DNA from: Prorocentrum cordatum | Lineage: Eukaryota; Sar; Dinophyceae; Prorocentrales; Prorocentraceae | Assembly: GCA_963575745.1 (NCBI GenBank) | Contig: CAUYUJ010002719.1 | Span: 22,530 to 86,529 of the forward strand | Length of the DNA stretch: 64,000 nucleotides | Reading direction: 5' to 3' | Shown here: positions 28,342 to 64,000 of the stretch, in pieces | Numbering within the stretch: position 1 is the stretch's first letter | Layout: each line of letters opens with the position of its first letter | Notes under the pieces: model-generated | Told to the model about the DNA's origin: nothing | Databases searched by the model: none | What the model saw: only the letters and a program-made list of their open reading frames with translations | Made by a program: the position numbers and the translations under genes

Positions 28342-28472
28342 GGTGGTCAGCCATGGCCGGCAGGGGTGGACCCAGGCGCCGCTAGGGCGGTGGCGCCGGG
28401 ACCGCTCGAGAGGCCAGGCGACTGCCGCTCCACCGAGGACGTGCAGTGCGTGGATCCACGGCGGGCGTGAGC

Positions 28473-42359: not shown

Positions 42360-43480
42360 AGAAAACATGTTATTTGAACATTTCTGGATGGGACTGTCTT
42401 GATTTAACACACCAGGTTCATGTTCTAAGAACATTGTTCCCTACCTAGGCTCTGCCTAGAAGGGTTCTTACTCTCTTAGCTTGAAGGGGCCGGGCAGTGC
42501 AACACGCCCCGGGCGGTTCCCCCAGTCCCTTGGGAGCGGTTCCCCCAGTCTCCTGGGAGCTTTAGCTTTAGCTTTAGCTTTAGCTTTAGCTTTAGCTTTA
42601 GCTTTAGCTTTAGCTTAGCGTTAGCTTAGCGTTTCGCTTAGATGTTCGCTTAGCGTTTAGCTTCGCTTTTCGCTTAGCGTTTAGCTTAGCTTTAGTTTAG
42701 CTTTAGCTTAGCTTTAGCTTAGCTTTAGCTTAGCTGTGGCTTAGCTGTAGCTTAGCTTTAGCTTAGCTGTAGCTTAGCTTTAGCTTAGCTGTTGATCAGC
42801 TTTAGTTTAGCTTTACCTTAGCTTTAGCTTAGCTTTAGCTTAGCTTTAGCTTAGCTTTAGCTTAGCTTTAGCTTAGCTGTGGCTTAGATTTAGCTTAGCT
42901 TTAGCTTAGCTTTAGCTTAGCTTTAGCTTAGCTTTAGCTTAGCGTTACTGTTACTACTAATGCTGCTTTCCTAGGGGTTCCAACTCCTAGGTTGGGTCGC
43001 ACTGGGATATTGTTTTCCCTACCTAGGCTCTGCCTAGAAGGGTTCTTACTCTCTATCTTAAAGGGGCCGGGCAGTGTTGCCCGCCCCAGGCGGTTCCCCC
43101 AGTCCCCGCCCCGCGGTTCCTCCAGTCCCCTGGGAGTTGTAGCTTTAAGTTTAGCTTTAGCTGTAGCTTTAGTTTAGCTTTAGCTTAGCTTTAGCTTAGC
43201 GTTAGCTTAGCTTTAGCTTAGCTTTAGCTTTAGCTTAGCTTTAGCTTTAGCTTAGCTTTAGCTTAGCGTTTCGCTTAGCTTTCGCTTAGCTTTAGCTTAG
43301 CTTTAGCTTAGCTTTACCTTAGCTTTAGCTTGGCTTTAGCTTAGCTTTAGCATAGCTTTAACTTAGCTTTAGTTTAGCTTTAGCTTAGCTTTAGCTTAGC
43401 TTTGCTGATACTATTGCTGCTTTCCTAGGGGCTCCAACTCCTAGGTTGGGTTGCACTGGGATGATGTTATTAGAACATAT
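42360..43480. repeat. Duplicated module with TTTAGC/TTAGC arrays
   Basis: Two head-to-tail modules (about 42438-43000 and 43010-43465) each begin CCTACCTAGGCTCTGCCTAG, pass through GGGGCCGGGCAGTG and a CGGTTCCCCCAGTC block, and end near CCAACTCCTAGGTTGGGT. Between lies a tandem array: pure TTTAGC (about 42559-42616) and then mainly TTTAGCTTAGC units (42640-42945; 43140-43405). Both modules lie near GAACAT / TTCTAAGAACAT segments. No gene is present. Confidence 0.8.
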
Positions 43481-47084: not shown

Positions 47085-47989
<905 letters not shown>

Positions 47990-50389
47990 TTAGCGCGGGG
48001 CACCAGGTGGAGCGCCGCGGAACGATGACAGCATAGCTTGGATGGTGAGTGACGGCACGGCACCATCGGGCGAGGCCGTGAGCAGCTCGGCAAAGGCTCG
48101 CCCAGCGCTGTGGAGGCGCTGGAGTAGAGGGCCTTGACGAGCTTGGGCGGCGGCGAGGTCCGCGGCGAGAGCTAAGCACCTCTGCTGGAGAGCAGCCATA
48201 GCCTGTGACAGCTCGGTTTCGCGGTCGGTGAGGGGTGGCTGCTCAGTGCCAGCAGCCGAGGGCCTCGAGACAGAGGCGAGGTCCTCGGTACGCCTGTCCA
48301 AATGGTGGACTGGCGTAGTGCGGCACCCTGTACGCTGTCGTCCGTTACCCTTGAAGGGTGACTGGAGGGGCCCACGCGACCCCAGGGCTGGAGCCGCTAG
48401 GGCCACGCCCCGAGAGGTCGGGAGAGCCGCTTCCTCTCGCTCAGCAACGATGGAAGCGTGGATGGGGCACGAGGGCCTGTCTGGTTTAGTACCCTGCGGG
48501 GGGGCTGAAGCCGCCCCCGCGGGCTGCCGGCGGTGGGGGGGCGGAGTGGTTTGCGCGGTGGGACCAGTCATGATGCCGTGCAAGGGCTCTGAGGTCGGTC
48601 GCGTAGAAGGTTGGCGTCTCGGTAGGGCGGCATGGTCGGCAGCGTGTGGTATCGGCGGTGCGTCCTCCATGCCACTCAGTCCGCGGGGGTCACCCAGGTC
48701 ATGGTCGGCGTCTTGGCGGTGGCCGATATCATCGTATGTGGGCGATGTCGCTCTCGGGGACGGAGTCGCAATAGGGATCGAGAGGTTGCCCGACGGGGCG
48801 GGGTTTTCGCTGGCTGGTCCGTCGTCCAAAGCGTCCGATCCCCCACCGAAGCTGAACAGGTCATCCTCCTGTTCGTCAGCGTCTTGAAAATGAGCGGCGT
48901 TGTCATGTGGGTGCGCTGCCGCTCTCAATGGCGGAGTCGGGGGCGCCGTGCGGGTGCCCGACGGGGCAGGGTTGGCGCTGGCTGGCCCGTCGCCCAGGAA
49001 GTCCAGGCCCCCGCCAAAGCCGAACGGGTCGTCCTCCTGTTCGTCGAATATCGCCCGTTGGGCCTCGGCCCAGAGCTCGTCCGGGTTCTGTGGGATGTCT
49101 GGTCCAGCCGCGGGTGGTGCCTGGTCAGACAGCAGGGGATTTGGTTCCATTTTGTTTAGTTCCGCAGCTGTGAACCCAGCCCTGCGGTGTGGGAGGGGGA
49201 GTGTACGGTGTCTACGCTCGTAGATGGCGACAGCGACTCCATGAAGCACGGTCGCTTGGCGATGTCGTGATTTGGCAGCTTCGACAATGTCGTCTGGAAG
49301 GTTATGAGTACGTGCCGCCGTTGTGGCGAGGGCGTCAGCCTGACGATTGAACTCCTCCGCGATGGGCCCGATGAGCCCGAGGTCGATGCCCATGTCGCCC
49401 TGGTGGCTAGCGACTTTCTCGACGCGGAACATGTTGGGCTTGGCCATGACGCATCGGTGGATCTTTTCCCAGAGCTCCACGTGCGTGCCCTGCGGTGGTG
49501 AGTGTCCGTCGATGATCCTTTGGAACCCATCAACCACCGCCTGGTTGTCCACGAAAACGTGTACGGGCCGTTCAGCACATGCCGTGAGGTGGACAATGGC
49601 GAGGGTCTCCGCAAGCTGTGCGTTCTGCGTAATGCCGTGAACGCGTGCACTGTAGTTCATGCGGTGGTCGATGCCGTAGTAGACGCCGTAGCCCGCTCGT
49701 GCTAGCAATGGGATGGCTTGGTTGGTGCATGCACCGTCCGTGGCAGCGTAGACCCATGTCCAACCAGTGTCGTGGTCAAGGTAGGTGGTGTAGGAGTCCT
49801 GGGCTGAAGCCGCAGGATCTCCCTCAGGTGGGGGCCGCGGTATGGGCTGAGGTAGCGGGTCCCTCGCGAGGTCGGCCTGCAGGTCGAGGAGGGCTGGGTC
49901 TTCATCGAAGAGCCCGCAGTGTCTTGTGTGCGGCGGAAGACGGGCCCACTGCTCGTCACTGATGAGGGTGGTGAGAGGGACTCTTTCTCGGGCCCAGCAC
50001 TTGCAGTCGCGAACAGTGTGCTCCTGAGTTTCCTCTTCCTCGTCGCAGTATCGGCAGATGGGGCTGGGGTCAGCGGACGTGTTTGATCGGGATCGTCGCT
50101 GTTGGGTGTGGTCCCCGCCCGACAGGTAGTTTAGGAGGAGCGCCAGCTGCCATGCGTTGCATTTGGCTGCTCCTTTCGTTCGGGCGAGCCACGTGCTGGC
50201 GAAGAGGTCGAGGCCCTGTCTGACAGAGGCCAGGTGTCCAAGGTCATGACGCCGTGGCTTGATTTTCTCAGAAAGGCTCTGCGTTGTGAGGCTCGCAGCA
50301 TGTGAAGGAAGGCGTTTTGGGGTAAGTTCAGCCAACTGATCTGACAGCCCCAGTCGTCGTACATGATGCCAAATGTGGGCCAGGTCCAA
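47990..50389 (-). CDS. LINE segment: CCHC finger, RNase H and acidic C-terminal region
   Basis: This 799-residue frame continues the RT protein after a -1 change near 50.4 kb; it has no ATG at its left limit and is not a separate gene start. A finger CRYC...HTVRDC (first Cys codon at 50056) is of the kind found downstream of LINE RTs. RNase H follows, with all four acidic residues: D at 49738 (TDGA), E at 49609 (AETLA), D at 49549 (VDNQAV) and D at 49336 (ADALA). The C-terminal half is Pro-rich with a ~57-residue duplicated block (DEQEDD...FGGG, near 49.04 and 48.87 kb) and a final helix. RNase H would remove RNA during second-strand synthesis. Confidence 0.85.
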   Translation of the reverse strand: MDLAHIWHHVRRLGLSDQLAELTPKRLPSHAASLTTQSLSEKIKPRRHDLGHLASVRQGLDLFASTWLARTKGAAKCNAWQLALLLNYLSGGDHTQQRRSRSNTSADPSPICRYCDEEEETQEHTVRDCKCWARERVPLTTLISDEQWARLPPHTRHCGLFDEDPALLDLQADLARDPLPQPIPRPPPEGDPAASAQDSYTTYLDHDTGWTWVYAATDGACTNQAIPLLARAGYGVYYGIDHRMNYSARVHGITQNAQLAETLAIVHLTACAERPVHVFVDNQAVVDGFQRIIDGHSPPQGTHVELWEKIHRCVMAKPNMFRVEKVASHQGDMGIDLGLIGPIAEEFNRQADALATTAARTHNLPDDIVEAAKSRHRQATVLHGVAVAIYERRHRTLPLPHRRAGFTAAELNKMEPNPLLSDQAPPAAGPDIPQNPDELWAEAQRAIFDEQEDDPFGFGGGLDFLGDGPASANPAPSGTRTAPPTPPLRAAAHPHDNAAHFQDADEQEDDLFSFGGGSDALDDGPASENPAPSGNLSIPIATPSPRATSPTYDDIGHRQDADHDLGDPRGLSGMEDAPPIPHAADHAALPRRQPSTRPTSEPLHGIMTGPTAQTTPPPHRRQPAGAASAPPQGTKPDRPSCPIHASIVAEREEAALPTSRGVALAAPALGSRGPLQSPFKGNGRQRTGCRTTPVHHLDRRTEDLASVSRPSAAGTEQPPLTDRETELSQAMAALQQRCLALAADLAAAQARQGPLLQRLHSAGRAFAELLTASPDGAVPSLTIQAMLSSFRGAPPGAPR

Positions 50390-53022
50390 CGGAGCTGCTG
50401 AAGCGTCTGGACAAGTCGTCCGACAGGTCCTCCCCCGAAAAGGGTCTGGACATGGTGTTGGAGATCCCTGACGAGACCGCAGAGAGTAGCGTCGCGGTTA
50501 ACCTGTCGCCGCAGACACAGGAAGACTTCACGCTGCATAATGGCGTCAATCTCCAGGGCGTGTCCTGGGACGCACACGGCCATGAGAGTCCAAAACTCGA
50601 CCCACCTGTTTCCCTTGGGGCGGATAGCCGCCTTAAGGGCATGGTTGTAGGCAGTTTTGACGGGGCCTGATGGGGCTTGAATGTCGGTGCCCGTGGTACA
50701 GACGCTGGCAGCAAGGGAACGGGCGTGCCGCGCCTTAATAAGCATCGGTGATGGGAGCTTGCCAATGCGCGGCAGGCGACTAGTCGCCCTGCGAACACGG
50801 GCGTCAGCGGTGGCCGTGAGGTTAAGCGCGGCTGGAGCCGGCGCTGCCTCGGCGTTGATGTAACTCCCGACGAGCTTGAAGGAGTCGACCACGCGTAAGG
50901 GCCGTTCCGCCAGAGTGAGCTGGGTAACGGCGGTGTGAAGCTCGTCGGTGAGCGCCCACCCCGCCACTTTGCCAGGGTGAATGCGTTGACCTGAAAATCG
51001 ATCAAACTTGGCGGTTTCATCAAGAGATTTCTGCAACTCAGGCGCGGTGTGAGTAGTGGAGTTGCTGTCGTCAACAAAGGTAGTGCTGAGTGATCGCGGA
51101 ACGTATCGATGCTGTCTCTTGGTCCACACACACATGAGCAGCTTAATGTCGTCCAGGGACCAAGAGCTTCCCTGGAGGTGACCGTTTGTCCTGGCCAGTT
51201 CCTTAGAGTACGCACCGTTCATGCGGATGTAGCGTTTGTGGCGACTGTAGAAGTTTCTGCGGACAGTAACGATGTCTTGGGGACACCCCGCGTGAAGCGC
51301 AAGGTTAAGGCAGATGTCCGTGATGAGGTAGTCGAAACACTTCTGTCGGTCCAGGGCAGCTCCAGCTAAGGGAAGGAGTAAGGCCCTGGCGTGTTCGATG
51401 CGCAGGGCAAGAGAGGTGCTGACGTCCCCAATGGTAGCTTTGGGGACAGCGCCAAAACTCGTGGCGTGGGTCCATCCTTTCCGCCAGTCCGTGAGGCTGC
51501 GGTAAGCTGGCGCTTCCCACGCATACATCCAAACGGAAAGCACCGAGAGAAGTCGTTGGTCCGTTGGGAGTTCGCCTCGGCCTTTTCGGAGGCACGGGTT
51601 TGGCACGTGGAGGAGGGGTTCTGGGATGGTGCCAGTGCGTTGCATAGCGCGTAGGACGCTGGCGAAGAGGCGAAGAATGTCGTCGGGTAACTCCTTAGCC
51701 TCCTTAGTAGTCCAGCCGTCCAGTCCCCCCGCGCGGCGCGGTGAACGGGTGCGAATGAAGTGGATGAGTTGGTCGTCGGTGAGGTGGAAAGGGGTAGCTG
51801 GTGATGGCGTAGGCAGCTCTTGTCGGTACTCGTCGTAGAAGTCGGCCCACGTCGGCATGGCTTCGGCGTCATGTCCCGCACGTGCACGGTACCTGCCCAA
51901 GATGGGCTCCCAGGTGTCGACCATGAGCTTAAGCATGTCCTTGGTGTTAGCAACAATGGCGTTGGCAGGGAGGATGTCGGGGACTTGCGCAGGTGGTGGT
52001 TCACGAGTGTGGTCTTCGTCGCTGTCCGTGTCGGGCGAACTACCGTCGCTGGGGCTGAAGCCGCCAGCTTCGGTGTCAGCGTCGCTGTCGTCCGTGCTAG
52101 CTTCGTCAGGTTTAAAGGCGTTGGTGTCGCAGTGGAGTTGCGTATCGTCAGGTGTGGTAGGCGTGCGGAGATACGCCGTGGGCGAGCTGTCAGCAGCCCG
52201 TGCGTATATGGCCGCCTTTCGCCCGCTTGGCTCGCGGACGCCCTCAGCCCATATCTTGATGCGTTCAGCTTTGGCACGGTTCGCACGTCGCGCCAGCTCT
52301 AAGTCGAGGTGTTGGATCAAAACGTCAAGGTGCTCTCCGTGAGGCACTGGCTCGTCGGGGGTCCAGGCCTCGGGGAAGTCTAGGAGAACCGTGGGGCGCA
52401 GCTTGTGGCATAGGAGGCGGGCCGCGGTCCACGTGCAGTCGATGCGCTGCGCGAGGTACGGCGGGATGGCACGGCAATCTAAATGATGGTGCTGTCCGAT
52501 GAAACGAAGCTCACAGAGTTGCCGATGGAGCTTGCGCAGTCGGTTCATGTGTATCGTGGAAGCTCCGTAGGTGGGGAAGGCGCGGGGGACAACTGGTCGC
52601 TCTTCGAACGTGGGCGTGAGCCCGTGCATGGTGGGGGGCTTCTTTTTTGGGTGGTCGGGCGGTGGAGGTGGCAGGTCGCGCAGACGGGTGAGATGGTACT
52701 CATGACTGGCCTCGTTAGCCAGGGCGAACATGCGCTCCACGTCGTCGCGTGTGTCGGCCTGTTCCATGCGGTCCTGATATCGCCCAGCGATGAGGGTCCC
52801 TAGTGCCTGCAGCTCGTGACCCTCATGAGCTCCATCGTCGGGAGGGTAGGGCGTGGGGGCAAGAAGACGTCGGGCCGTATGGTCGAGGCGACTGAGGTCA
52901 AGCGTGACCTGCAGGCCAACATGAGACTTCGCTGGCAAGTCGCGAGATAGCAGAAGTCGGTGACAAGGGATCGCGCCGCTTGGTTGGCAATGATATAATC
53001 GATGCGCGAAGTGCGGGGGCAC
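50131..53022 (-). CDS. LINE reverse transcriptase segment
   Basis: This 963-residue frame starts in the endonuclease and holds its final His (KSHVGL, His codon at 52923) before the RT. RT motifs are LDRQKCFD (catalytic Asp codon at 51351), GHLQGSSWS (motif B) and TFVDDSN (Asp codons at 51072 and 51069). This is a non-LTR RT that primes on nicked target DNA. The upstream linker is Pro-rich, then acidic with the hairpin-encoded GGFSP. The last ~90 residues look like a shadow because the protein continues in the next frame. Confidence 0.85.
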   Translation of the reverse strand: MPPHFAHRLYHCQPSGAIPCHRLLLSRDLPAKSHVGLQVTLDLSRLDHTARRLLAPTPYPPDDGAHEGHELQALGTLIAGRYQDRMEQADTRDDVERMFALANEASHEYHLTRLRDLPPPPPDHPKKKPPTMHGLTPTFEERPVVPRAFPTYGASTIHMNRLRKLHRQLCELRFIGQHHHLDCRAIPPYLAQRIDCTWTAARLLCHKLRPTVLLDFPEAWTPDEPVPHGEHLDVLIQHLDLELARRANRAKAERIKIWAEGVREPSGRKAAIYARAADSSPTAYLRTPTTPDDTQLHCDTNAFKPDEASTDDSDADTEAGGFSPSDGSSPDTDSDEDHTREPPPAQVPDILPANAIVANTKDMLKLMVDTWEPILGRYRARAGHDAEAMPTWADFYDEYRQELPTPSPATPFHLTDDQLIHFIRTRSPRRAGGLDGWTTKEAKELPDDILRLFASVLRAMQRTGTIPEPLLHVPNPCLRKGRGELPTDQRLLSVLSVWMYAWEAPAYRSLTDWRKGWTHATSFGAVPKATIGDVSTSLALRIEHARALLLPLAGAALDRQKCFDYLITDICLNLALHAGCPQDIVTVRRNFYSRHKRYIRMNGAYSKELARTNGHLQGSSWSLDDIKLLMCVWTKRQHRYVPRSLSTTFVDDSNSTTHTAPELQKSLDETAKFDRFSGQRIHPGKVAGWALTDELHTAVTQLTLAERPLRVVDSFKLVGSYINAEAAPAPAALNLTATADARVRRATSRLPRIGKLPSPMLIKARHARSLAASVCTTGTDIQAPSGPVKTAYNHALKAAIRPKGNRWVEFWTLMAVCVPGHALEIDAIMQREVFLCLRRQVNRDATLCGLVRDLQHHVQTLFGGGPVGRLVQTLQQLRWTWPTFGIMYDDWGCQISWLNLPQNAFLHMLRASQRRAFLRKSSHGVMTLDTWPLSDRASTSSPARGSPERKEQPNATHGSWRSS

Positions 53023-55976
53023 TTGGTGACGCGGTCCCAGTCAGGGATATTGCCGTATGTGTGCATGGTGTGGTCTGGTGTGCCCTCAGCGACGTTGAAC
53101 CATCCGTGCTGCAACATGTGCAGAAGGTGTGGGTTGTCGTCGATGTTCGTATTGGCGTCCATGCAGATGAAGTAGGGGGCTGAGCCGACCCTAGCGGCGG
53201 CGCAGTCAGCGAGCCGAAAAAGAGCTGTGCTGTCTCCTCCAGCAATCCCGTAGAGGCTCGCTATGTAGATCCCCGCGGGCCCGTGGTTGTTTCGTCGCCG
53301 CCTGCGGCGGTGTTGAGTGCAGAGCGGGAGAAAGACCTCGTGCCATCTTTTCTTGGCCTTGAGGGCGACGATACAGGGCGCATTGTCGTCGACAGTGGAG
53401 TCGACAATGGCATCCTTAGAGAGGATGGCGACCCCTCCCGAGGCGCCAGTGTTGCCCACTACGGTGTGGTCAGTGCCGCCGTGGGCAGCTTTGCGCTGGG
53501 CTCGCGCCAGATCAAGGTCAGGTCCAAGACTGGCGTGGTATCCTCCGTGGAGTGGATTGGCGGCGCTGGTAGCTATGGCTTGTCTAGTCGGCTTGGCATG
53601 TCGGGTCTCCTGCAGTGCTATGACTGCGGCGTTGTGGTCGACACCAAGGGCGGTGATGGTTGGCCAATTCGCTGAGAGACTGGTGATGTTAAGGCTGACG
53701 AGGTGCATGGAGCGACCTGGCCCGTCTCCATCGGTGGAACTGGGGTTTGCACGCCCCGCACGGTGAAGGTCAGCCTGACCCTCGCCCAGGTAGAAGGCTT
53801 GGCCACAGTAGGAGCTCATGGCGTTCCTATGGATTAGCTTGACCGGGGCTGAAGCCGCCGTCAGGCCAGAAGTATAGGCGGGACACGGTCGGCACTGCGC
53901 CAGGGGGGGTTCATAAACGTCAGTAAAAATGTCACGAAAAATCCTCCTCACTCCAGTACCGTAGGGGACGAGGGGAGGAGAGGTGAGACGGCAGCAGAGG
54001 GAGAGGGAGGCGACTCCTCGATCCGTCCTGCCGAACACAAAAGCAAAAGCGAACCAGCGGCGGCGGCTAGGCGCGGCAGCGGCACAACGCACGCGCATAT
54101 ACTGCGCACGCGACACCGCTGGTCCGTCCTGCGGTGGCGCGCCCGCCCCGTCAGTATCTTGATGAGCAGCATCTGGTGGAACAGCTCCAGCAGCACGGTC
54201 GGAGGCCTGGCGCTGGGCCTCGTCCATGCCCGCTGCCGTGAGGCCCACGTTGCGGACAGGGCTGATTCCCCGCGGGGCCGCCGCTGCCGCGGCAGCAGCT
54301 GAGGTGGCGGGGGCTCCGCCCCGACTCTGAGGTGAGAGCGGTGAGCCACCGCCGAAACCCGCCACAAGGTTCTTGACACGGTACTTGTTCTTGAACGGGT
54401 CGAAGGTTGGCGCCTCGTCGATGGGGACGATCACGCGGGTGGGCAGCGGCGGCTCGTGGTCCGTGGACGGCGTCGGCTCGAGGTCGACCTGGCCAGGTTC
54501 GATGACGCTGGCTCCGAAGCGTGGCACCACTTCGGGGGCTCGGCCATCAGCCTGAGTCTCGCGAGGCGGCGAGCTCGTGGAGCTCCCTGGGGCCTTGCGT
54601 GAACTGTGGCGGCTGCAGGTCCTGCTGCGCGGGACGCGCCCGCCCGTGTGGCGGTCGCGTGGCGAGGTCGCCTGGGCATTAGCGCGCTCGGAATCCGCCC
54701 TGCTCGGGGATCGGATCGGCGCCGCGCAGGGTGATGGGCTGGGCTGGCGAGAGGCGCTTGTGCCGCCCTCCGCCGTGGCTGTGGCCTGGTCAGGGTCGAC
54801 AGCGTCGGGGCGGGGGCTGACGTGGTGGGCGCTTCCCTCGCTGTGCCGCGGGGAGGCGCTGTGATGCGCCTGGATGTGCGTGAGGACGAGCGGGGTAAGC
54901 GGCTGCCTCTCCCGCTCAGGTGGGGCAGGTTTTGCCTGGGCAGGGCGCAGTGCTGCAGCCACGTTTGGCGGGGGCGTGTGCTGGCGCGGTTGCCAAGCGC
55001 GCACGTTCGCATCACGCCATCCTTCGGGGCGCCCAGTCCTGCCACGGTTTGTTGCAGCCCCCTGGGCTGAAGCCGCAGGGGTTATCACTGCGGGCTGGTT
55101 GCTGGAGGTGCCATCATGTCGGCCTGAGTAAAGGCCCCAGGCGCGCGTGGACCCTGGCACTGGCGAGGTGGCCCTTGGGAGGGCCTGCACGGGTGCACGC
55201 GGGTAGCCGATGACCGCTGGGTGTACCCTGGCGTGGGGGGCGTGGCCGTAGCTGGAGGCGGCTGCTCCAGCAGCCGCGGGCCTGGCACCTATGGGGCCAC
55301 GGTAGTAGGCGGCAACCCCGTCGTAGGCCGTGTTACCGCCTGTCGGGACTCGCGCGGGGGAGCGGTAGCGTGGCGTGCCCTGCTGTCCTGCGTCACGTTG
55401 GTCCCGCTGCTGAATGCGCTGCTGGTGCTGTTGGTGTCGCTGCCAGTCGGCTCTCGAGAGGGGACGGGTGTCGGGGAGGATGGTGGGCACGTCGGGCCGC
55501 TGCCAGCCCCGATAGACGTGCTCGAAGGCGTGGTCAGGGTAGGTCCCCCCTACGGGTGAGTATCGCCGCACATGCTCCATGTAGTCGATGTTCTGCGGCT
55601 CGGAGATCGCCGTGATGTTGACGGCTCGCTGGTGCGCTGGTCCATAGAGGCAGAAACTACCACGGTTGCTGCGGTCGTGGTTTAGCTCGGCTTCGGTCGT
55701 GGCACGGCTCACCATGGCGTCGCAGAGTCGCATGTCGTAGTCGAGGGCTTGAGGCCCAGGACCACCCTCGGCGTCCCAGTACAGTACCACATCTCGCCAG
55801 CGGGTGCGGGTGTGTGGATGCGCTCGGCGATCGACTCGCAGACGGTCCTGACCGTGACACGATCCCTGTACATGTTGGTAATGGCTAGGGAGTAGGGTCG
55901 GCGGACCGTCTTGTTGAAGGTGAATTCCTCCTTGAGGGCCTGGTGGGGACTGAAGAGCACGTAGCCTTCCCTCCAA
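52800..55976 (-). CDS. LINE segment: disordered region and APE-type endonuclease
   Basis: This 1058-residue open frame has no ATG at its limit and continues the preceding Cys-rich frame. The first ~700 residues are Pro, Arg, Ser and Ala rich and likely disordered. The C-terminal ~250 residues are an apurinic-endonuclease-like domain. Catalytic candidates are Asn (codon 53690, SLNITS), Glu (53609, LQETR), Asp and Asn of MDANT (Asp 53159) and Asp of SRIDYII (53000). The last His lies in the next frame (KSHVGL), so the true reading changes frame near 52.95 kb. It would nick target DNA for primed reverse transcription. Confidence 0.8.
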   Translation of the reverse strand: MEGRLRALQSPPGPQGGIHLQQDGPPTLLPSHYQHVQGSCHGQDRLRVDRRAHPHTRTRWRDVVLYWDAEGGPGPQALDYDMRLCDAMVSRATTEAELNHDRSNRGSFCLYGPAHQRAVNITAISEPQNIDYMEHVRRYSPVGGTYPDHAFEHVYRGWQRPDVPTILPDTRPLSRADWQRHQQHQQRIQQRDQRDAGQQGTPRYRSPARVPTGGNTAYDGVAAYYRGPIGARPAAAGAAASSYGHAPHARVHPAVIGYPRAPVQALPRATSPVPGSTRAWGLYSGRHDGTSSNQPAVITPAASAQGAATNRGRTGRPEGWRDANVRAWQPRQHTPPPNVAAALRPAQAKPAPPERERQPLTPLVLTHIQAHHSASPRHSEGSAHHVSPRPDAVDPDQATATAEGGTSASRQPSPSPCAAPIRSPSRADSERANAQATSPRDRHTGGRVPRSRTCSRHSSRKAPGSSTSSPPRETQADGRAPEVVPRFGASVIEPGQVDLEPTPSTDHEPPLPTRVIVPIDEAPTFDPFKNKYRVKNLVAGFGGGSPLSPQSRGGAPATSAAAAAAAAPRGISPVRNVGLTAAGMDEAQRQASDRAAGAVPPDAAHQDTDGAGAPPQDGPAVSRAQYMRVRCAAAAPSRRRWFAFAFVFGRTDRGVASLSLCCRLTSPPLVPYGTGVRRIFRDIFTDVYEPPLAQCRPCPAYTSGLTAASAPVKLIHRNAMSSYCGQAFYLGEGQADLHRAGRANPSSTDGDGPGRSMHLVSLNITSLSANWPTITALGVDHNAAVIALQETRHAKPTRQAIATSAANPLHGGYHASLGPDLDLARAQRKAAHGGTDHTVVGNTGASGGVAILSKDAIVDSTVDDNAPCIVALKAKKRWHEVFLPLCTQHRRRRRRNNHGPAGIYIASLYGIAGGDSTALFRLADCAAARVGSAPYFICMDANTNIDDNPHLLHMLQHGWFNVAEGTPDHTMHTYGNIPDWDRVTKCPRTSRIDYIIANQAARSLVTDFCYLATCQRSLMLACRSRLTSVASTIRPDVFLPPRPTLPTMELMRVTSCRH

Positions 55977-56965
55977 AGCGGTTGGTCGGGGAAAGGTTCT
56001 TCGGGCATCCCCGTTCCTGTGAATCCAGGTGGCCGCCTTGTGCCGTCAGGCAGTCCCTGCCTGGGGACGCGCCGCGGCTGCGGTGGGAAGTACCATTGAC
56101 CCTGGTAACCTGCTTGCCCTGGTTGTGGAGGTTCCCCCCCGGGGCCTGAAGGCGCTCGGGGGGGTTCCTTAAGGTCGTGGAGGGCTGGCGCGTTGCCGAA
56201 TTGGCGGGCAAGGATGTGCGGCGGCATCCCTGTGGCACGGACGTCGAGCAGGCTGTGTGGACTGGGGGGATGGGGGCACCTGCTGGACAGGCAGCATGTG
56301 TCGGAGTCCCTGTTGTTGGTGCTGTATGCACACGTCCAACTGTTGCACGAGCAGTCCGTGGACCAGTCCATGAGTGTACGCAGTCCGCTGCGGCCGCAGT
56401 CTGGGCACGTTGGTTGGCCCGAGGTGCCGAGCTGCGTGTTGCGGCGAGCCGCACAGTACTGGCAGCATTGGAATCGACACTGTAGGCAAGACCAGCGTCC
56501 TGGTAAAGGCGGGAGCGCATGCTCATTTGTGCCTGGGTCGTCTGGGTGGGGTCGCGGGCGATCCCACATGGGCCAGACGCCAGCAAACCAGGATTGGCCT
56601 GTAGTGCGGACAACCTCGGCGGGGAGGCGAGCGTCCTCGGCACGGCACCGCTGGGGCCCCATGCCCGCTGGTACCATGACGGTGCGCCAGGTGTCGTCCG
56701 CTTTGACGTGGACTTGGGTCGGTGCCCAGAGCTTAGTAGTGGTGTCGCCGTGGTCGTGGTGAAGGATGACCCAGCCGTCCCGCCCCGCCACCGCAGGGTC
56801 AATAACGCGGTGGCCCATGACTGTCGTCCCCCACGGTAAGTAGGCACCGTCGTGGTGATCACCAGGGTCAAGCCAGACCTCGATGCCAGGGGCATTGGCA
56901 CGGGTCCGCACATCACGGACGTGGTAGGCGAGGACGTGGTAGGCAGTCGGCTCCTCTTCCGTCAC
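55709..56965 (-). CDS. LINE segment: Cys-rich protein
   Basis: This 418-residue open frame (first codon GTG, so probably a continuation) has a central Cys cluster (CLQCRFQCCQYC, CPDCGRSG, CSCNSWTC and CC...CP) at roughly residues 160-235. This suggests two or three zinc-binding knots. Pro/Gly-rich linkers with a hairpin-encoded APSGPGG follow. Its C-terminal part is overlapped by the next frame. No family is recognised. Confidence 0.6.
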   Translation of the reverse strand: MTEEEPTAYHVLAYHVRDVRTRANAPGIEVWLDPGDHHDGAYLPWGTTVMGHRVIDPAVAGRDGWVILHHDHGDTTTKLWAPTQVHVKADDTWRTVMVPAGMGPQRCRAEDARLPAEVVRTTGQSWFAGVWPMWDRPRPHPDDPGTNEHALPPLPGRWSCLQCRFQCCQYCAARRNTQLGTSGQPTCPDCGRSGLRTLMDWSTDCSCNSWTCAYSTNNRDSDTCCLSSRCPHPPSPHSLLDVRATGMPPHILARQFGNAPALHDLKEPPRAPSGPGGEPPQPGQAGYQGQWYFPPQPRRVPRQGLPDGTRRPPGFTGTGMPEEPFPDQPLWREGYVLFSPHQALKEEFTFNKTVRRPYSLAITNMYRDRVTVRTVCESIAERIHTPAPAGEMWYCTGTPRVVLGLKPSTTTCDSATPW

Positions 56966-59900
56966 AATGTGCTCCCACGTCTCGATGCCACTGTTGTCTG
57001 AGGTGGAGTTCCCGCACTCTGTCGTGACGAGCGAGAGGCAGATCGTCGTGGGCGGGCACGGCCTCGGGCGAGGGCGGCGGCCGCGCTGATGAGGGAAGGC
57101 GTACGGCGTTCGTCGGCTCCTGATGACGTCGATGAGCGGTCTGGACTGTGCGCCAGGGCTGTGCCTGACTTGTACGTGCGTGGTGGGCCCGACGCGGCCC
57201 CAGGGCTGGAGCCGCTGGGGCGCGACCCGCGTGCGTCAGGGTGCCCCCGCACGGGGACAGCTTGCAAGCCAGTGTACACCAGGTCGATGAGTGGTTTCGG
57301 GTCCAGCTGGAGCATGTGAAGCGAGACGCGTGGGCGGGGCTGGTTAGGGTCATCCCTGGTGGCTGCTTCCGTGTCGTAGTGCTGTTTGGCCCATACTCGC
57401 GCTGCCTCTGGCGAGTATAGTGCCTGCGGCGGTGGCCACGCTGCCGCGATGGCTGGTCTGCGCCTGGTGCTAGCTTCCTGGTCGTGAGCTTCAGCCGCCT
57501 CACGGGATCTGGATGATCGTAGCCAGCGATGTGAAGGGCGTGCGCGCAGTCGCCCATGCCATAGGCGTGTGGTAGGGCACGGCACCTGGAAGCAGCTTCT
57601 GTGGGGGCGCACCAGTCCATGCGGATGAGGAGGCTCAGGACCCGAGGGTAAATGAGGCGCGCTCCGTGGGCCTCCCCTTTCACGTAGTTGTGCCTGTTTT
57701 CCCCGCGCGGTGGTTGGGTGGCCTCGCACATCCAGAGTGCGATGGGTCCCCACGCGAGGGTGTCGTCTTCAAGACTGTAGGGCGGGTGGGGCGGCATTGC
57801 GTACCACGCGGCCAGCGAAGGGTGCACGCTCGCGTACGTGCGGCCAACGTTGGTGCCAGTTCGGCCCTTCGCTTCACGGCGGGGACCTGGCAAGAGGTGC
57901 CCTCCACTGGCAGCAAGACGGGCCGCAAGGTCGCCGCGGGTCCCATGCCAGAAGACAGTGGGCGCGTCGGTGGTGGGTTGGCGGAGGTCCCACGTGAGGT
58001 ATGGGAAGATTGTCTCGCCTGAGTTCCCGCCCGAGTCTTCCAGCACCCAAGTGAGGCGGTTCGGTGGCCTCTGCATGATGTCCGTCCACGGCCCCAGCGC
58101 TTGGAGTGTTGGATCATGAGTAAATCGAGGATGGTCGTGGAGTCGCAGAGCGTCTTTGATGTCCTCTGTAGACACGCCACTGTTTCCTAGCGCAAAGCCG
58201 TTTTGATACAGGGCGTTAAGTATGCTCTTCGGCGGCACGGGGACCGCTGGGTCGCGCTGGATGGTGTTGCGTAAGTTGCGTGTCGGTGGCTTGAGGGCTG
58301 TGTAAGGCATACCAGGGCCTGAAGGCGCCTGGGGCCTGTCGGGTGATGCATAGCGTGCTCGCCGTCGTGGTGGTTGGGTGTCCGCGTCGGGGGAGGAACC
58401 ACGAGCGTCAGCATGTCGGAAGATGGACCACGGGCTATCGTGGGTGCGCTCACGCGTTTCCCTTGCCTCGGTGTCGCTGCCGTGTGCTGTGGCATCCTCG
58501 TTAGTCGGTAGGTTACCGAATGCCGCGCCGCTCTTGGAGCCGTCTCGTGGAGACGGGCTGGTCGATCTTGGTGTGACAGACGAGGCTCGCGATACGGCGG
58601 CAGTGACTTCGACGATGGCGGCGGTGGTGGCGGTAGTGACATCGGCGACTGCGGCGGCAACTGCTGCGGCGTAGTGTTCCTGCAGCAGCGGATGTCGGAG
58701 TGCGTGCACATGCTGGTCGTCGTGTTCGTCGGCGAGCGTGCACGGCATTTTGTATGTGGCCTCATCACGCGGCCTCCTGCTCGGTTGGCAACAGCGGAGG
58801 CACCACTGGGCTGTGGATGAGTCCAGGGCCCGCGCACAGATGCGGGCTCCTACGTGTCCGACAGCTCCCTGGGCAAGAAGTTTGGCACCGACGAGTAGAA
58901 GACCACACACGACTCCACCCGTGGCAATAGCCCCTAGCTTGCCGCTGGCCCATTTCAGGACACCCCCGAGGCCGACCCCGACTGCGGTGGCTCCGCCCGA
59001 GACGCTATCTCTGAGTTTGACGCTGGTCCATTTGAGAGTGGCCCACAATGCGGACGTGACGTTGTATGTCGTTTTGCGTCGGGATGTGGTGGGCACAGAT
59101 GGGCCTGGTGCCGTCGCTTTGCGTCGTCGTCGTTGTCGGTAGCTGGGGTCTCGGCTCGGTGTCGGCAAGTACCCATCGATCTGGTCCTTGTACGGCATTG
59201 CTATCGCGATGGCGTACGTGGCCACAAAGAGGCAGATGAGGCAGCCACAATGTCGTGATGCCGCTGCGCTGTGCTGGGGCTCGTGGGAACCGCTGGCATC
59301 TGGGTACTCATCATCGATGGGGTCGTTGTCGATGTCCGCCTGCCAGTGGCCAATGACACTGGGGTTGGAGTCAGTCGCGTTGTCACGGTGTACAGAGGTG
59401 AAGGGCGTGGTGCTGCCACCTGCGGTCTGGGGATGTCCAGGTCTAGCCAGTGCTGCAGCGGGGCTGAAGCCGCCACTGCACGGGCTGGCATGAGCTGGCG
59501 ATGCAGTGGAATTGCTTGTCGCGTCGGCGGCAGTGACGCCTTCAGCGTCGTTGAGCTGTGCGCCGGGGTCGGCCTGAGCTGAGTTGTGGGGCGGACTGCT
59601 GTGCAACGAGGTGTGCCCAAAGTAGGGTTCACTGTCGCGGTCACGCTGGGCCGAGTCGCCTGGTGGTGTCGTGCCGTCTCGATCCTGGGTATCGATGCCG
59701 TCCTGGCTATCGTCCGACGCGTGGAACGAGTCCATGGATATGTTGCCGATATCGTTGGCCGCGATGTGCTGTAGCAGCCATGATACGGGATCATCTGCGG
59801 CCTGATCGGTGCCGTCCATCGGCGCCGCGGCGAGCTCCGCCTCGACAAGCGGCAGCATGTCTGGCGGTTGGTGCAGGATCACGTCGGCGAGGTACGCCAT

Positions 59901-60884
59901 GGCGTCTTGGTCGGGTGGAGGGAGGCCTCTTGGCAGCAAAGCATGGGCCCGTGAGAGGTATGGCGGCAAAGGTGCCGTGAAAGCCTCAGGACCGACGAGC
60001 GTGGCACGAGCGCCCTGGTATTCCAGAAGGAGGCCAAAGTAGCGGGTGGCGTACTCGCGGCTGCTCTGGATACGAGTGAGGTTGCGGTTGGTGCGCTGTC
60101 TGTCGGGGCCCGCTCTGTGCCAGATGTCCTCGCACATGTCGACCGCGGTGCGCTGACGCAGGGCGTCGGTTGTGTCCTCAGAATCCTCCTGAAAGAGGTG
60201 ATCATACTGTGGCAGATGAAGCGTCGCCAGGATGTACGGGACGCAGTCCTCGAGCCATGCCCAGAACACGTCCTGGTGGTCCTCACCTGGTGCCCACGCC
60301 GCAGCACACGGTATGAGCCGGGCGCGGATCATCATCAGGTGCCAGAAAGCAGGGTCCTCCTCGGGTTCGCCCCTAGCGCACAGGGGGGTGGTGAGACCCG
60401 TGGGGCAATAGCGGGGCACAACAGCGGGGCTGAAGCCGCCACTGTGTGCCTGGCCTAAATCAACGTCCCCGTCAAGGATCTGCAGCACCGCAGTCGAGGC
60501 CACGCTGGGAGTGGATTTCGATGCATGTGTCGTAGTTGACAAGGGCGTGTATGCGCTCACGATGGCGCCCAGCGGTCCGTTGCCGCACGGACCCGCGGCT
60601 ACGGTGCTGTTCACGATCGGGTCCAAAATGGTGCAGTGATCGTACTTGTAGATGCTGTCATCGTAGAGGTAGAAAAGGGTCCCACGTTCAGCGTGTCGCA
60701 GGAAAACCTCACCTCCATGCTGGGGCGCACCGCCTGAAGACGGGTGTGCTCCAGCGAGCGAGGGGAGGGCCAGGCTGCAGGCAAGGCGCCACATGATGGC
60801 GAGGCCTGGCGGGCGGCGCGAGCGATGAGCCAAAAGCTGCATGTCAGCACGCATCCTCAGATACCCCTGCATGCTCATGTACAT
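56913..60884 (-). CDS. Large LINE ORF with PARP/ART-like segment and membrane-like helices
   Basis: The first ATG in the open frame is at 60884 (1323 residues). The N-terminal third has a hydrophobic start and a His/Asp/Trp-containing helical region. The middle holds two hydrophobic stretches (near ICLFVATYAIAIA and GGVVCGLLLVGAKLL) that could span membranes. Around residues 974-1030, VFWHGTRGDLAARL...GG and then RTYASVHPSLAAWYA resemble the H and Y motifs of the PARP/ADP-ribosyltransferase fold (His codon 57947, Tyr codon 57836, 37 residues apart). The third catalytic residue is not certain. The last ~170 residues look like a shadow of the next frame. GGFSPA twice and APSGP once come from the hairpin family. 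Confidence 0.65.
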   Translation of the reverse strand: MYMSMQGYLRMRADMQLLAHRSRRPPGLAIMWRLACSLALPSLAGAHPSSGGAPQHGGEVFLRHAERGTLFYLYDDSIYKYDHCTILDPIVNSTVAAGPCGNGPLGAIVSAYTPLSTTTHASKSTPSVASTAVLQILDGDVDLGQAHSGGFSPAVVPRYCPTGLTTPLCARGEPEEDPAFWHLMMIRARLIPCAAAWAPGEDHQDVFWAWLEDCVPYILATLHLPQYDHLFQEDSEDTTDALRQRTAVDMCEDIWHRAGPDRQRTNRNLTRIQSSREYATRYFGLLLEYQGARATLVGPEAFTAPLPPYLSRAHALLPRGLPPPDQDAMAYLADVILHQPPDMLPLVEAELAAAPMDGTDQAADDPVSWLLQHIAANDIGNISMDSFHASDDSQDGIDTQDRDGTTPPGDSAQRDRDSEPYFGHTSLHSSPPHNSAQADPGAQLNDAEGVTAADATSNSTASPAHASPCSGGFSPAAALARPGHPQTAGGSTTPFTSVHRDNATDSNPSVIGHWQADIDNDPIDDEYPDASGSHEPQHSAAASRHCGCLICLFVATYAIAIAMPYKDQIDGYLPTPSRDPSYRQRRRRKATAPGPSVPTTSRRKTTYNVTSALWATLKWTSVKLRDSVSGGATAVGVGLGGVLKWASGKLGAIATGGVVCGLLLVGAKLLAQGAVGHVGARICARALDSSTAQWCLRCCQPSRRPRDEATYKMPCTLADEHDDQHVHALRHPLLQEHYAAAVAAAVADVTTATTAAIVEVTAAVSRASSVTPRSTSPSPRDGSKSGAAFGNLPTNEDATAHGSDTEARETRERTHDSPWSIFRHADARGSSPDADTQPPRRRARYASPDRPQAPSGPGMPYTALKPPTRNLRNTIQRDPAVPVPPKSILNALYQNGFALGNSGVSTEDIKDALRLHDHPRFTHDPTLQALGPWTDIMQRPPNRLTWVLEDSGGNSGETIFPYLTWDLRQPTTDAPTVFWHGTRGDLAARLAASGGHLLPGPRREAKGRTGTNVGRTYASVHPSLAAWYAMPPHPPYSLEDDTLAWGPIALWMCEATQPPRGENRHNYVKGEAHGARLIYPRVLSLLIRMDWCAPTEAASRCRALPHAYGMGDCAHALHIAGYDHPDPVRRLKLTTRKLAPGADQPSRQRGHRRRHYTRQRQREYGPNSTTTRKQPPGMTLTSPAHASRFTCSSWTRNHSSTWCTLACKLSPCGGTLTHAGRAPAAPALGPRRAHHARTSQAQPWRTVQTAHRRHQEPTNAVRLPSSARPPPSPEAVPAHDDLPLARHDRVRELHLRQQWHRDVGAHCDGRGADCLPRPRLPRP
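56962..57753 (-). CDS. LINE linker frame between the ART-like and Cys-rich segments
   Basis: This 263-residue frame takes over from the large ORF near 57.5 kb. A short helical block (EAARVWAKQHYDTEAATRDD) and a VSLHMLQLDPKPLIDLVYTG segment look like real protein. The remainder is Ser/Arg rich. It ends at 56962 while the Cys-rich frame begins at 56965, so the two abut almost exactly. Confidence 0.5.
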   Translation of the reverse strand: MGTHRTLDVRGHPTTARGKQAQLRERGGPRSAPHLPSGPEPPHPHGLVRPHRSCFQVPCPTTRLWHGRLRARPSHRWLRSSRSREAAEAHDQEASTRRRPAIAAAWPPPQALYSPEAARVWAKQHYDTEAATRDDPNQPRPRVSLHMLQLDPKPLIDLVYTGLQAVPVRGHPDARGSRPSGSSPGAASGPPRTYKSGTALAHSPDRSSTSSGADERRTPSLISAAAALARGRARPRRSASRSSRQSAGTPPQTTVASRRGSTL

Positions 60885-61055
60885 TGCAACAAACACACCC
60901 ACAGCAAGATGACAGGTGTCCCTACACCAGATAGCTTGCTCGTGCTGCTGCCAAAACTGACATGATATGACAAGAAAGAGATACGACGCGAAGAGAGAAG
61001 AGATGCCTCTGAAGGCGCTTCCTCGGAGGGCTGAGGCAGGCTCTCTGAGGCACCT
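60885..61055 (-). other. Interval between coiled-coil frame and large LINE ORF
   Basis: About 170 nt separate the stop of the coiled-coil frame from the first ATG of the large ORF. It is the only clear non-coding gap inside the LINE and marks the best candidate for an ORF1/ORF2 boundary. Confidence 0.5.
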
Positions 61056-61643
61056 TCAATAGGGTTCCTGAGTGACCCGACCCTTGTCTTTGCCTTTGTC
61101 AGCCCCTGGGGGCCCCGTCCCTGGGGTGACCTGGCCTGGCTGGTCAATCCACCCGCAGACAGCCACGGGATCGGCAACTGATGCAGCTTCCTCCTTTTTT
61201 GTTTCGAGAGTGGCCACCTGTGGCAGGTGGATGGTGCCCCCCGTGAGGTGCCCGAGGAGGGCCTGGATGTCGCCACGCAGTGCAGCAGCTTCGGTAGTTG
61301 CCGTCTGTTGCTGAGTGACGACAGTGGCAAGCCCTCGTTCCAAACCTGAAACGTGCTCCGTGAGTGTGGCCTGGGATGAGAGAACGCCCGCAAGCTGAAC
61401 CTGCATGTTATCCACCGTGTTGGCAAGCAGCTCGTGCTGTTGTTCCATGTGTTGGATGCGGGTCGTGGCGGCATCTGACAGTTTAGGGGCCGTTGCGAAG
61501 CGTTCGCCGAGGGTGTTCAGTTCGCGAGATGCCACGCTGAATTCATCCCCTGATGAGAGGATCTCGACGTCGTCAGCGTCGCCTGGTACCTCGGCGGCTG
61601 TGGCAGCGTCCCCTTCCGTGTGGCCCCCGCCTTCAGCCGCCAC
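61056..61643 (-). CDS. LINE coiled-coil segment
   Basis: This 195-residue frame has an acidic N-terminus and then a long helical region (about residues 45-150) with heptad-like Leu, Val and Gln spacing, followed by a short Gly/Pro-rich tail. Its left limit is GTG, and it continues the ORF1-like protein after a -1 change near 61.64 kb. Coiled coils are common in LINE ORF1 proteins, where they trimerise the RNA-binding protein. The frame stops at 61056, and the large ORF follows in the same phase after about 170 nt. Confidence 0.65.
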   Translation of the reverse strand: MAAEGGGHTEGDAATAAEVPGDADDVEILSSGDEFSVASRELNTLGERFATAPKLSDAATTRIQHMEQQHELLANTVDNMQVQLAGVLSSQATLTEHVSGLERGLATVVTQQQTATTEAAALRGDIQALLGHLTGGTIHLPQVATLETKKEEAASVADPVAVCGWIDQPGQVTPGTGPPGADKGKDKGRVTQEPY

Positions 61644-63625
61644 CGTGCCAAGTTGCGGGTCATGACACCTGGTCCTTGGACGGCCGTCTGCTCGGCAGCT
61701 CCATCCGTGCCGTGCGGGGGTGCAGAGGAGCTGCGGCCTGGGGCGCCGTGTGATCTTGCGTGCGGCGTGGCGTCGCGTTTCCCACTGGAGGATCGGTGGC
61801 GCTTGGCTAGAGGCTCCTCCTTGGGGATCGGGAGCGGTGCGACGCCCTTGCCTTTGGGCGTGGCAGTCATGAGGTCGTGGAGGTAAGGGCTCTGGGCCGC
61901 TTTGGTTAGGAGTGTGCCCGTGGCGGGGCTGAAGCCGCCACCACGGGCTGGCGGCGTCACAGGCTCTGTGATAGTGGTAGGGGTGACAATGGTAACGTTG
62001 TCCCTCTTCGGCACCACCTCAGCCAACGGGGCCTCGGTGATGCTCCACGGGATGGGGCACCCTGCGACCTGTACCGTATATGTGGGTGGGGGACGATGGG
62101 CGCGCACTAAGGCAAACTGAGCCGAAGTGGCTGGGTCCCAGGCGGTGTGGTAGACCTCACAGTCCCATTTGACGGACGGGCCCGTGAGAGTCTTAGCAAG
62201 CTGGGTCAGCGTGGCGTGGCGTGCCGCAATGCCAGTGATGCGGTATCGCGTCTTGGCGAGGGTGGCTTCACAGCCACGGATGCTGACGGCAGCAGCCTTG
62301 GCGGCGTCTGACCCTCGTGCAACACGGATCCCCAATAAGCCTGACTTGCCGTGCCTGACGACTCCTAGGGCCTTGAAGTCCACCGACTTCTGGAACGCAT
62401 CTGCCATCGTGATGGGCTGGTCCTCAGGGAACCACACGGTCTGGTACTTGTCTGCAGTGGGCTCGTCTGCACCTACGTTGCTGAGGTCGTAGGTGGCGCC
62501 GAGTTGCCCTGAACCCGCCAAGACCTTGTCAACCGCTTGAAGACTGACGCCGAAGGTGGCAGCCAGGGACCTCTTTCCGACGCCCGATCCATACCTGCCT
62601 AGGCTTTTGCAGGGTTCGAGGATGGTGACGGCTTTAAAGTTGCCGTGGAAGGGGGCCTTGAATGTGTCCTGGAGCTGACTATCGAGCTCCTGACGGCGAG
62701 CGTCTTTCTTGGACTCCCTGTGCTTTTGGTTTTGGCGCGCCTTGTCCTGTGGGGCGGAGTCCCTTCGGAAAGGGCCCTTGGCGCGTGGACCACCGTTCAC
62801 GGGGGCACCTCCCGAGAACTGATCCTCGAAGGCCTGATGCATGGACGGGACTGCGGCGATGGCCTCGGTTTCATGTATGGTCACCCGAATCCAGCATACG
62901 TGGTCGGCAGGGTCGATGGTGGCGACGGCTACTTTTTCCGTGCAGGCGACTTCCTTGGTGCCCAGCTGGTACACGGTCACGGGGACGTGCGTGTGGACCA
63001 CTTTGGGCGCCTTGGGTGACGCTTCAGCACGGGGACGGCGAGCTCGGTACCGACGTAGTTGTCGTTTTTTTGGGCCCATGACAGCAATCGCAAGCTGACC
63101 CGTGGTACGCTTACCCTGCACGAGGTGGTGTTGCAGCAGCCGTTCTCCGCTCTCGTAGTCGTGGAGGCTGATACTGGGCTTGTACGTCTTGCCGTCGTCA
63201 AGTGATGTGGGTTCGGCGAGGACTGGGACCTTCCAGAAGGCCGGGTCCAAGGCAATGAATTGGGCGTCCGCAGCCTGAAGACGTGCGGACGCAGCTGGTG
63301 GGTGTGATGTGTCACCACCAATGCGCTTAGGCTTGCTGCGCTGGTGGTGATCCAGCGTGTAGCTGATCTGGTTGGCGGCACACATGCGGATCAAGGCACT
63401 GCCGAGCTTCTTTGTGTTGGTCTTGTGCATGTCGTACGTGGCCTGCAGCTCGTCCGCGTTCAGCTCGGCGAGCCCGTTGTATGCGGCCGTGGGGCGGTCA
63501 GACCCCGCTTGCTTGAAAGCTGCGATGCAGTCCTGCTTGCGTTGGAGGAGAGACCCTTCAGCAGCAGGACGTGAGCTCGGCGGCTGCTTGGAAGAGCGAC
63601 GGCGCTCCGGCTTACCGGGGGCCAT
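61517..63625 (-). CDS. LINE ORF1-like protein
   Basis: Begins at ATG 63625 (702 residues). It has a basic N-terminus, a mixed helical region, a charged Lys/Arg/Gln segment (near 62.75 kb) and two alpha/beta-like blocks (GLLGIRVARGSDAAKAAAVS and WDCEVYHTAWDPATSAQF) that could be RNA-binding folds. A disordered Pro/Ser tail with hairpin-encoded GGGFSPA follows. From about 61.64 kb the frame becomes a shadow and the protein continues in the coiled-coil frame. The role is inferred from position: an RNA-binding structural protein of the LINE RNP. Confidence 0.65.
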   Translation of the reverse strand: MAPGKPERRRSSKQPPSSRPAAEGSLLQRKQDCIAAFKQAGSDRPTAAYNGLAELNADELQATYDMHKTNTKKLGSALIRMCAANQISYTLDHHQRSKPKRIGGDTSHPPAASARLQAADAQFIALDPAFWKVPVLAEPTSLDDGKTYKPSISLHDYESGERLLQHHLVQGKRTTGQLAIAVMGPKKRQLRRYRARRPRAEASPKAPKVVHTHVPVTVYQLGTKEVACTEKVAVATIDPADHVCWIRVTIHETEAIAAVPSMHQAFEDQFSGGAPVNGGPRAKGPFRRDSAPQDKARQNQKHRESKKDARRQELDSQLQDTFKAPFHGNFKAVTILEPCKSLGRYGSGVGKRSLAATFGVSLQAVDKVLAGSGQLGATYDLSNVGADEPTADKYQTVWFPEDQPITMADAFQKSVDFKALGVVRHGKSGLLGIRVARGSDAAKAAAVSIRGCEATLAKTRYRITGIAARHATLTQLAKTLTGPSVKWDCEVYHTAWDPATSAQFALVRAHRPPPTYTVQVAGCPIPWSITEAPLAEVVPKRDNVTIVTPTTITEPVTPPARGGGFSPATGTLLTKAAQSPYLHDLMTATPKGKGVAPLPIPKEEPLAKRHRSSSGKRDATPHARSHGAPGRSSSAPPHGTDGAAEQTAVQGPGVMTRNLARWRLKAGATRKGTLPQPPRYQATLTTSRSSHQGMNSAWHLAN

Positions 63626-63780
63626 TGCGGCGGGCGCTCTGGTGGGGAGAGAGGTGACGCGAATCAGTAGGGTCCTGCTGGGACCCCTCCGGTCTCGCGA
63701 GGCCTGGGAGTCTGACTCCGAGGCGGGGCGCTTCGCGTCGCGGCTGCGGTCTGAGTGCAGGGCACTCTCGAGCCGAGACT

Positions 63781-63782
<2 letters not shown>
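63626..63782 (-). other. 5' leader of the LINE
   Basis: The 157 nt between the (TC)n flank and ATG 63625 carry no ORF of note. The boundary with the microsatellite is sharp (CTCTAG on the minus strand). Confidence 0.6.
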
Positions 63783-63820
<38 letters not shown>

Positions 63821-63897
63821 GAGAGAGAGAGAGAGAGAGAACAAAAAAGAAGAAACAAAACAAAAAATAACAGAGAGAGAGAGAGAGAGACAGAGAC

Positions 63898-63952
<55 letters not shown>

Positions 63953-64000
63953 CAGAGACAGAGACAGAGACAGAGACAGAGACAGAGACAGAGACAGAGA
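63783..64000. repeat. (GA)n and (GAGACA)n microsatellite at the right edge
   Basis: GA repeats (63783-63840), an A-rich interruption (63841-63871), more GA, then GAGACA hexamers from about 63932 to the end. It abuts the 5' end of the LINE and is cut by the window edge. Confidence 0.95.

Follow-up and report, generated by a model that had tools for sequence, protein, structure and literature searches.

The window analysed here, a 64,000-nucleotide stretch of a Prorocentrum cordatum contig with a G+C content of 60.8%, contains one copy of a giant LINE encoded on the minus strand (Table 1). The ends of this copy, at ~47.58 and ~63.82 kb, are approximate, having been placed from the head-to-tail junctions of other copies, and CT/GA tracts flank it on both sides. 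Many copies of the LINE are present in the genome assembly that we searched (4.13 Gb in 21,875 contigs). The reading frames of the window copy are interrupted, and all those of at least 250 residues lie within 47990–63625 on the minus strand. Matches to an endonuclease, a reverse transcriptase (RT) and an RNase H, all from the same strand of a repetitive element, place it among the LINEs, with the RT match being weak and the endonuclease match falling just below the Pfam cut-off. Residues 380–840 of the RT region are 48% identical to P0001, a protein from a 7159-base contig for which Pfam returned no domains. Protein scans of genome contigs and viral contigs found no relatives. By eye, a stretch of the middle ORF, HGTRGDLAARLAASGG...GRTYASVHPSLAAWYA, has some likeness to an ADP-ribosyltransferase fold, to which Pfam gives no support.

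Head-to-tail copies of the LINE with CT/GA tracts between them were seen at L129, L139 and their neighbours (C21, C102), and likewise in the window at 47207–47622 and 63781–64000, as if the LINE inserts into its own dinucleotide tracts. Outside the LINE, the window also holds a 3175-residue ORF on the plus strand (28446–37973) and a long tandem array with the unit AGCTTTAGCTT (42558–43403).

Design and spacing of the hairpins

Fifteen hairpins of one design lie within the LINE, all of them on its coding strand. An earlier note on this DNA had listed 13 sites on the plus strand between 48386 and 61927, and all 13 are present there with the features it described: an inner stem of GGC/GCC in 11 and GCC/GGC in two, a TGAA loop in 10 and TGGA in three, and a single unpaired G in every one. 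Since the coding strand of the LINE is the minus strand, the bulge reads as a C on the 5' side in its RNA, and the loop as U[U/C]CA. On the LINE mRNA the design is thus an outer stem, a single 5'-side bulged C, a 3-bp inner stem and a UUCA or UCCA loop. A scan with a looser descriptor found two more sites in the LINE, hairpins 1 and 3, which raises the total to 15 and extends the array to 63.29 kb. The note's statement that the outer stems always pair holds for most of the sites, the exceptions being the one-base offset in hairpin 10 and the A.C mismatches in hairpins 3 and 8. In all 15 predicted minimum-energy folds, a 3-bp inner stem stands above an unpaired 5' base. Some neighbouring hairpins look alike (59472, 60438 and 61937), as do 57214 and 48396, and the matches to 57214 include cross-hits of 48396.

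Table 1. Coordinates of the LINE, its reading frames and hairpins, and of a second element elsewhere in the genome. Numbers in brackets are the site names used in the text; inner stems and loops are given as RNA.
Feature	Position	Strand	Remarks
Giant LINE copy	47583..63819	minus	carries the hairpins; ~16.2 kb
ORF1	61517..63625	minus	702 aa; eight relatives, 45-96% identity
Middle ORF	56913..60902	minus	1329 aa; no Pfam match; no homologue found
ORF with endonuclease-like domain	52800..55976	minus	Pfam E 4.7e-05; 23.7 bits, cut-off 24.5
RT ORF	50131..53022	minus	weak Pfam RT match, E 0.078
RNase H ORF	47990..50389	minus	Pfam E 1.8e-07
Hairpin 1 (63283)	63265..63291	minus	inner stem GUC/GGC; absent from the earlier note
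Hairpin 2 (61937)	61919..61945	minus	
Hairpin 3 (60742)	60724..60750	minus	inner stem GUC/GGC; A.C mismatch; absent from the earlier note
Hairpin 4 (60438)	60420..60446	minus	
Hairpin 5 (59472)	59454..59480	minus	
Hairpin 6 (58327)	58309..58335	minus	inner stem swapped, GCC/GGC
Hairpin 7 (57214)	57196..57222	minus	UCCA loop
Hairpin 8 (56154)	56136..56162	minus	inner stem swapped, GCC/GGC; one A.C mismatch
Hairpin 9 (55075)	55057..55083	minus	
Hairpin 10 (53857)	53839..53864	minus	outer stem offset by one base; weakest, 22.8 bits
Hairpin 11 (52063)	52045..52071	minus	
Hairpin 12 (50840)	50822..50848	minus	UCCA loop
Hairpin 13 (49812)	49794..49820	minus	
Hairpin 14 (48513)	48495..48521	minus	
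Hairpin 15 (48396)	48378..48404	minus	UCCA loop; 117 nt from hairpin 14
Second element (L125/L126)	C2:406.5-413.6 kb		~7 kb; one copy seen

A strict descriptor (a C, 3 bp, T[CT]CA and at least four contiguous outer pairs) gave 13 matches on the sense strand of the LINE, namely the two sites added here and 11 of the 13 noted earlier, from which 53857 and 56154 drop out under its four-pair rule. It gave no match on the antisense strand of the LINE, and none on either strand of window positions 1–47600. In 300 dinucleotide shuffles of the LINE the mean was 0.02 strict matches, with a maximum of one. Chance was therefore rejected as the origin of the hairpins.

The hairpins are regularly spaced, with a mean distance of 1063 nt and a coefficient of variation (CV) of 0.375; when the sites were placed uniformly 20,000 times with the ends kept fixed, a fraction of only 0.0002 reached this value. 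Without 48396 the CV falls to 0.27, and without both 48396 and 60742 to 0.18. Such even spacing fits a long RNA being coated or compacted. Regular spacing within reading frames would also suit signals for RNA processing or translation control, such as cleavage, pausing or polyprotein-spacing signals once per ~350 codons. We consider such a role very unlikely: pausing requires stability rather than a fixed loop and bulge, and hairpins of the same design occur in a second element with other frames (see below).

All sites in the window have one orientation relative to the LINE. There are nine pairs that need the sense strand, where they are G.U, and four that need the antisense strand; this is weak evidence, since several of these pairs share descent. 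The single orientation, together with constraint inside the reading frame, points in the same direction as the G.U count, towards sense-strand RNA. A structure or binding site at the DNA level, either a cruciform or a dyad, would account for the palindromic sites, and covariation alone cannot separate RNA from single-stranded DNA, but the constant orientation and the excess of sense-only G.U pairs, weak as the latter is, make this reading very unlikely.

Constraint and covariation

For comparison with the window copy we used a subfamily copy on contig C18886 (L154, L155), which is 88–92% identical to it by block and has an open frame of 4350 residues, preceded in the same frame by an open frame of 604 residues. 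Within the hairpins (21 nt each), 3 of 315 sites differ between the two copies, compared with 1362 of 15518 (8.8%) in the rest of the element, and none of 5000 random placements gave a count as low. The difference is clearest at third codon positions, of which 0 of 91 have changed inside the 13 frame-covered hairpins and 741 of 4261 (17.4%) outside them. Two of the three changes within hairpins replace one loop pyrimidine by the other, and the third falls in the outer stem of 53857. This silent-site test stays valid even if the hairpin sites are not independent paralogues. Nine hairpins lie in one codon phase, five in another, and hairpin 1, which encodes RLQ in ORF1, in the third. As all three codon phases are used, it is the RNA that is kept, rather than a peptide, and peptide conservation was rejected as the cause.

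Other copies of the LINE, compared over 22 stretches, give a similar picture. A stem was counted as intact if it had its three inner pairs and no fewer than four of the five outer ones, and by this measure 155 of 159 site-by-copy comparisons keep it; these used alignments of at least 400 columns and tested stems and not loops. Of the four that fail, one has a deletion, one an indel and two a single mismatch in the inner stem. In the 158 comparisons without deletion, the bulge is always a C, and the loop departs from UYYA in only three.

The hairpins also covary among themselves. Our alignment (A3) comprised 14 of the 15 LINE sites, 53857 being left out because of its indel, and four of the six sites of the second element, whose A-bulge pair was found later. 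Over these 18 hairpins, 89.4% of cells are paired, compared with 60.4% after shuffling and 37–52% when the partner is slid, and the covariation score is 0.681 vs. 0.156 for the control. Pairs changed on both sides number 9, with 7.0 expected; this was the one measure of five that did not clearly exceed the shuffled controls, being reached by 34 of 500 shuffles. Since the sites are paralogues, not all of these events are independent. A covariance model built from the 14 LINE and four second-element sites scores the 15 LINE hairpins at 22.8–40.1 bits and the next place at 14.5; 14 of the 15 matches are by construction, while that of 53857 is independent of the model. The earlier note had taken the freely differing but pairing stems as the mark of selection on a folded nucleic acid, and the covariation among sites, the silent-site constraint and the intact stems in other copies all bear this out.

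Distribution in the genome and a second element

The genome contains 8358 occurrences of the pattern GGGGCTGAAGCCGCC and 37 of the reversed pattern. For CGGCTTCAGCC with its flanks, 100 of 10942 matches were listed, of which 80 were assigned by their left flank either to this LINE or to the second element. Every one of the 80 pairs at four or five of the first five outer positions, a figure that the flank-based sorting partly builds in. The informative figure is that among the matches listed just 1 of the 20 non-LINE places pairs (at five of five), the other 19 lacking pairing flanks. A further 100 listed matches of the swapped core were judged by eye without counting.

These figures bear on the suggestion, also made in the earlier note, that the sites are very small mobile hairpins that happened to enter the LINE. 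Neighbouring sites do look alike, and hairpins also lie within two short tandem duplications of the second element. Free mobile hairpins would be expected as complete hairpins at many unrelated places, which is not what the non-LINE matches listed contain, and most of the other core copies among them have no pairing flanks. Together with the silent-site constraint against the C18886 copy, this makes the mobile-hairpin origin highly improbable.

One lone hairpin, at C48:617851 (L156), has seven outer pairs including two G.U, and is the sole strict match in 10 kb. The covariance model scores it at 29.4 bits (E 2.3e-4), and the stretch is unrelated to the LINE by blastn; we read this site as probably due to chance. 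Among viral contigs, 115 stretches contain the 15-mer, and a descriptor scan gave two matches at one locus only and no arrays.

A search based on P0001, in which 35 of 10760 candidates were scored, identified another LINE family, 42% identical to P0001. Over 16 kb at C3524 this family has no hairpins by descriptor or by model (E up to 1). Related LINEs lacking the hairpins or any substitute for them, which the earlier note would have counted against its proposal, are represented by this one distant family, and not by copies of the hairpin-bearing family. The absence also bears on whether the reader could be an RNA-binding protein of the host, brought in so that an exceptionally long RNA is exported, stabilised or translated. 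Silent-site constraint and covariation would look the same for a host protein as for one of the element. However, the C3524 family resides in the same genome and has none of the sites, and non-LINE core places, among the matches listed, mostly lack the fold; we regard a host reader as unlikely, though deserving of consideration.

The second element, on C2, opens with a CT tract and ~20 bases that are identical, by direct inspection, to the start of the LINE. Its 3' end is that of the LINE: 221 nt match the C18886 copy at 85% and, with the CT tract included, 537 nt match the window LINE at 88%. The body between is unlike the LINE, being of low complexity with 12-nt periodic repeats, and its ORFs contain no Pfam domains. 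Six hairpins of the LINE design are present, unevenly spaced, and two of them have a bulged A (20.0 and 18.6 bits). Both elements contain close doublets, with a distance of 117 nt in the LINE and of 114 and 129 nt in the second element. From its sequence, this single copy looks like a non-autonomous partner of the LINE, and we treat it as a candidate. If it is such a partner, ends and hairpins in common with the LINE would be expected from recognition in trans. The hairpins are nearly restricted to one LINE family and this one relative.

Possible readers and known systems

One candidate for a protein that reads the hairpins is ORF1. No known RNA-binding domain was recognised in it, and comparison with solved structures gave weak coiled-coil-like matches only (best E 0.055). 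At the position of hairpin 1, five of the eight ORF1 relatives have RLQA, RLQT or RLQP, and of the three among those five that reach hairpin 2, two have GFSP and one GSSP. The three most distant relatives (45–48%) have neither peptide signature. We predict from these proteins that the residue changes correspond to codons that either preserve inner-stem pairing (GUC/GAC, GGC/GCC) or create a UCCA loop. One relative, P0004, is 96% identical to the ORF1 of the LINE and is filed as a protein of a Myxococcales bacterium MAG, which suggests that the bacterial bin is contaminated.

We propose, with a probability of roughly one half, that the 15 hairpins are cis-acting RNA elements, likely docking sites for one element protein that coats or marks the LINE RNA. 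Selection would keep their fold, loop and bulge in the coding RNA, where the reader would be a single element-encoded RNA-binding protein, whether one like ORF1 or a domain within the giant ORF2. This protein would recognise the U-Y-C-A loop together with the single 5' bulged base, much as the MS2 coat protein recognises xxYA and an A. With a site every ~1.1 kb, it could coat and compact the ~16 kb RNA, and mark it as the element's own, before reverse transcription. Enzyme-less elements could ride along by bearing the same hairpins. It is by analogy that we infer such a reader, its binding and its role in packaging or marking; the precedents of MS2 and of the stringent LINEs make an element protein the likely reader.

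A more specific possibility, which we hold only tentatively, is a virus-like dispersed packaging code, in which an element protein, brought in by the uniform and regularly spaced hairpins, would assemble a defined particle, and non-autonomous elements would exploit the code by evolving hairpin sets of their own. Alternatively, the ORF2 protein could bind the hairpins to mark its template, with many sites giving cis preference and neither coating nor packaging being involved. A LINE protein that reads a hairpin has been described in zebrafish, where the region between endonuclease and RT is reported to bind a stem-loop in the RNA tail (PMC4176376), and the second element shares both the 3' end and the hairpins. 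But the known cases have one hairpin at the 3' end of the RNA, while here the sites are spread over coding RNA, and we consider template marking alone improbable. The docking of an element protein that coats or marks the RNA remains our preferred reading.

An even array of one covarying hairpin within reading frames makes RNA recognition by a LINE testable, and a short synthetic hairpin RNA could fish out the reader protein. Should that reader be encoded by the element, it would link the assembly of retrotransposon RNPs to assembly by viral packaging signals, and would suggest how a 16 kb RNA is held together. The hairpin can also serve as a marker for tracing this LINE family in other genomes. 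To our knowledge, the cis signals of LINEs are single hairpins near the ends of the RNA, and the way in which LINE proteins pick out and coat the RNA of their element is poorly understood. Among the titles and abstract openings listed in our searches of open-licence literature, we found neither a hairpin array in a LINE nor dispersed packaging signals in a non-LTR element.

The earlier note had drawn analogies with the iron-responsive element and with the MS2 coat-protein hairpin. The iron-responsive element, found in UTRs, has a bulged 5'-side C and a six-base CAGUGN loop ~5 bp from the bulge. The first of these analogies is the weaker one: the bulged 5' C is common to both, but the loop and its distance from the bulge differ. 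At gathering scores, no Rfam family, the iron-responsive element included, matches in the window. The MS2 hairpin has 2 bp between bulge and loop, where the LINE hairpins have 3 bp. In stringent LINEs such as zebrafish ZfL2, the protein reads both stem and loop of a hairpin in the LINE RNA and is reported to recognise the loop specifically (PMC4176376). The hairpin in the RNA of a LINE is the likeness here; the single 3'-tail hairpin of ZfL2 is the difference, there being 15 sites across the coding RNA of the P. cordatum LINE. The MS2 analogy fits better once the hairpins are read on the coding strand, as a UYCA loop with a 5' bulge. In PMC6281560, the MS2 motif is given as an xxYA loop with an A in a 5' bulge, and other MS2 stem-loops with the same motif, dispersed over the RNA, can serve as packaging signals. 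The bulge is an A in MS2 and a C in the LINE hairpins, although two second-element hairpins also have an A, and the carrier here is a LINE with a postulated coat protein. In common with MS2, all 15 sites of this one LINE have a four-nucleotide loop whose last two bases are a pyrimidine and an A, together with a single base left unpaired in the 5' arm, and the sites are likewise dispersed in many copies over coding RNA.
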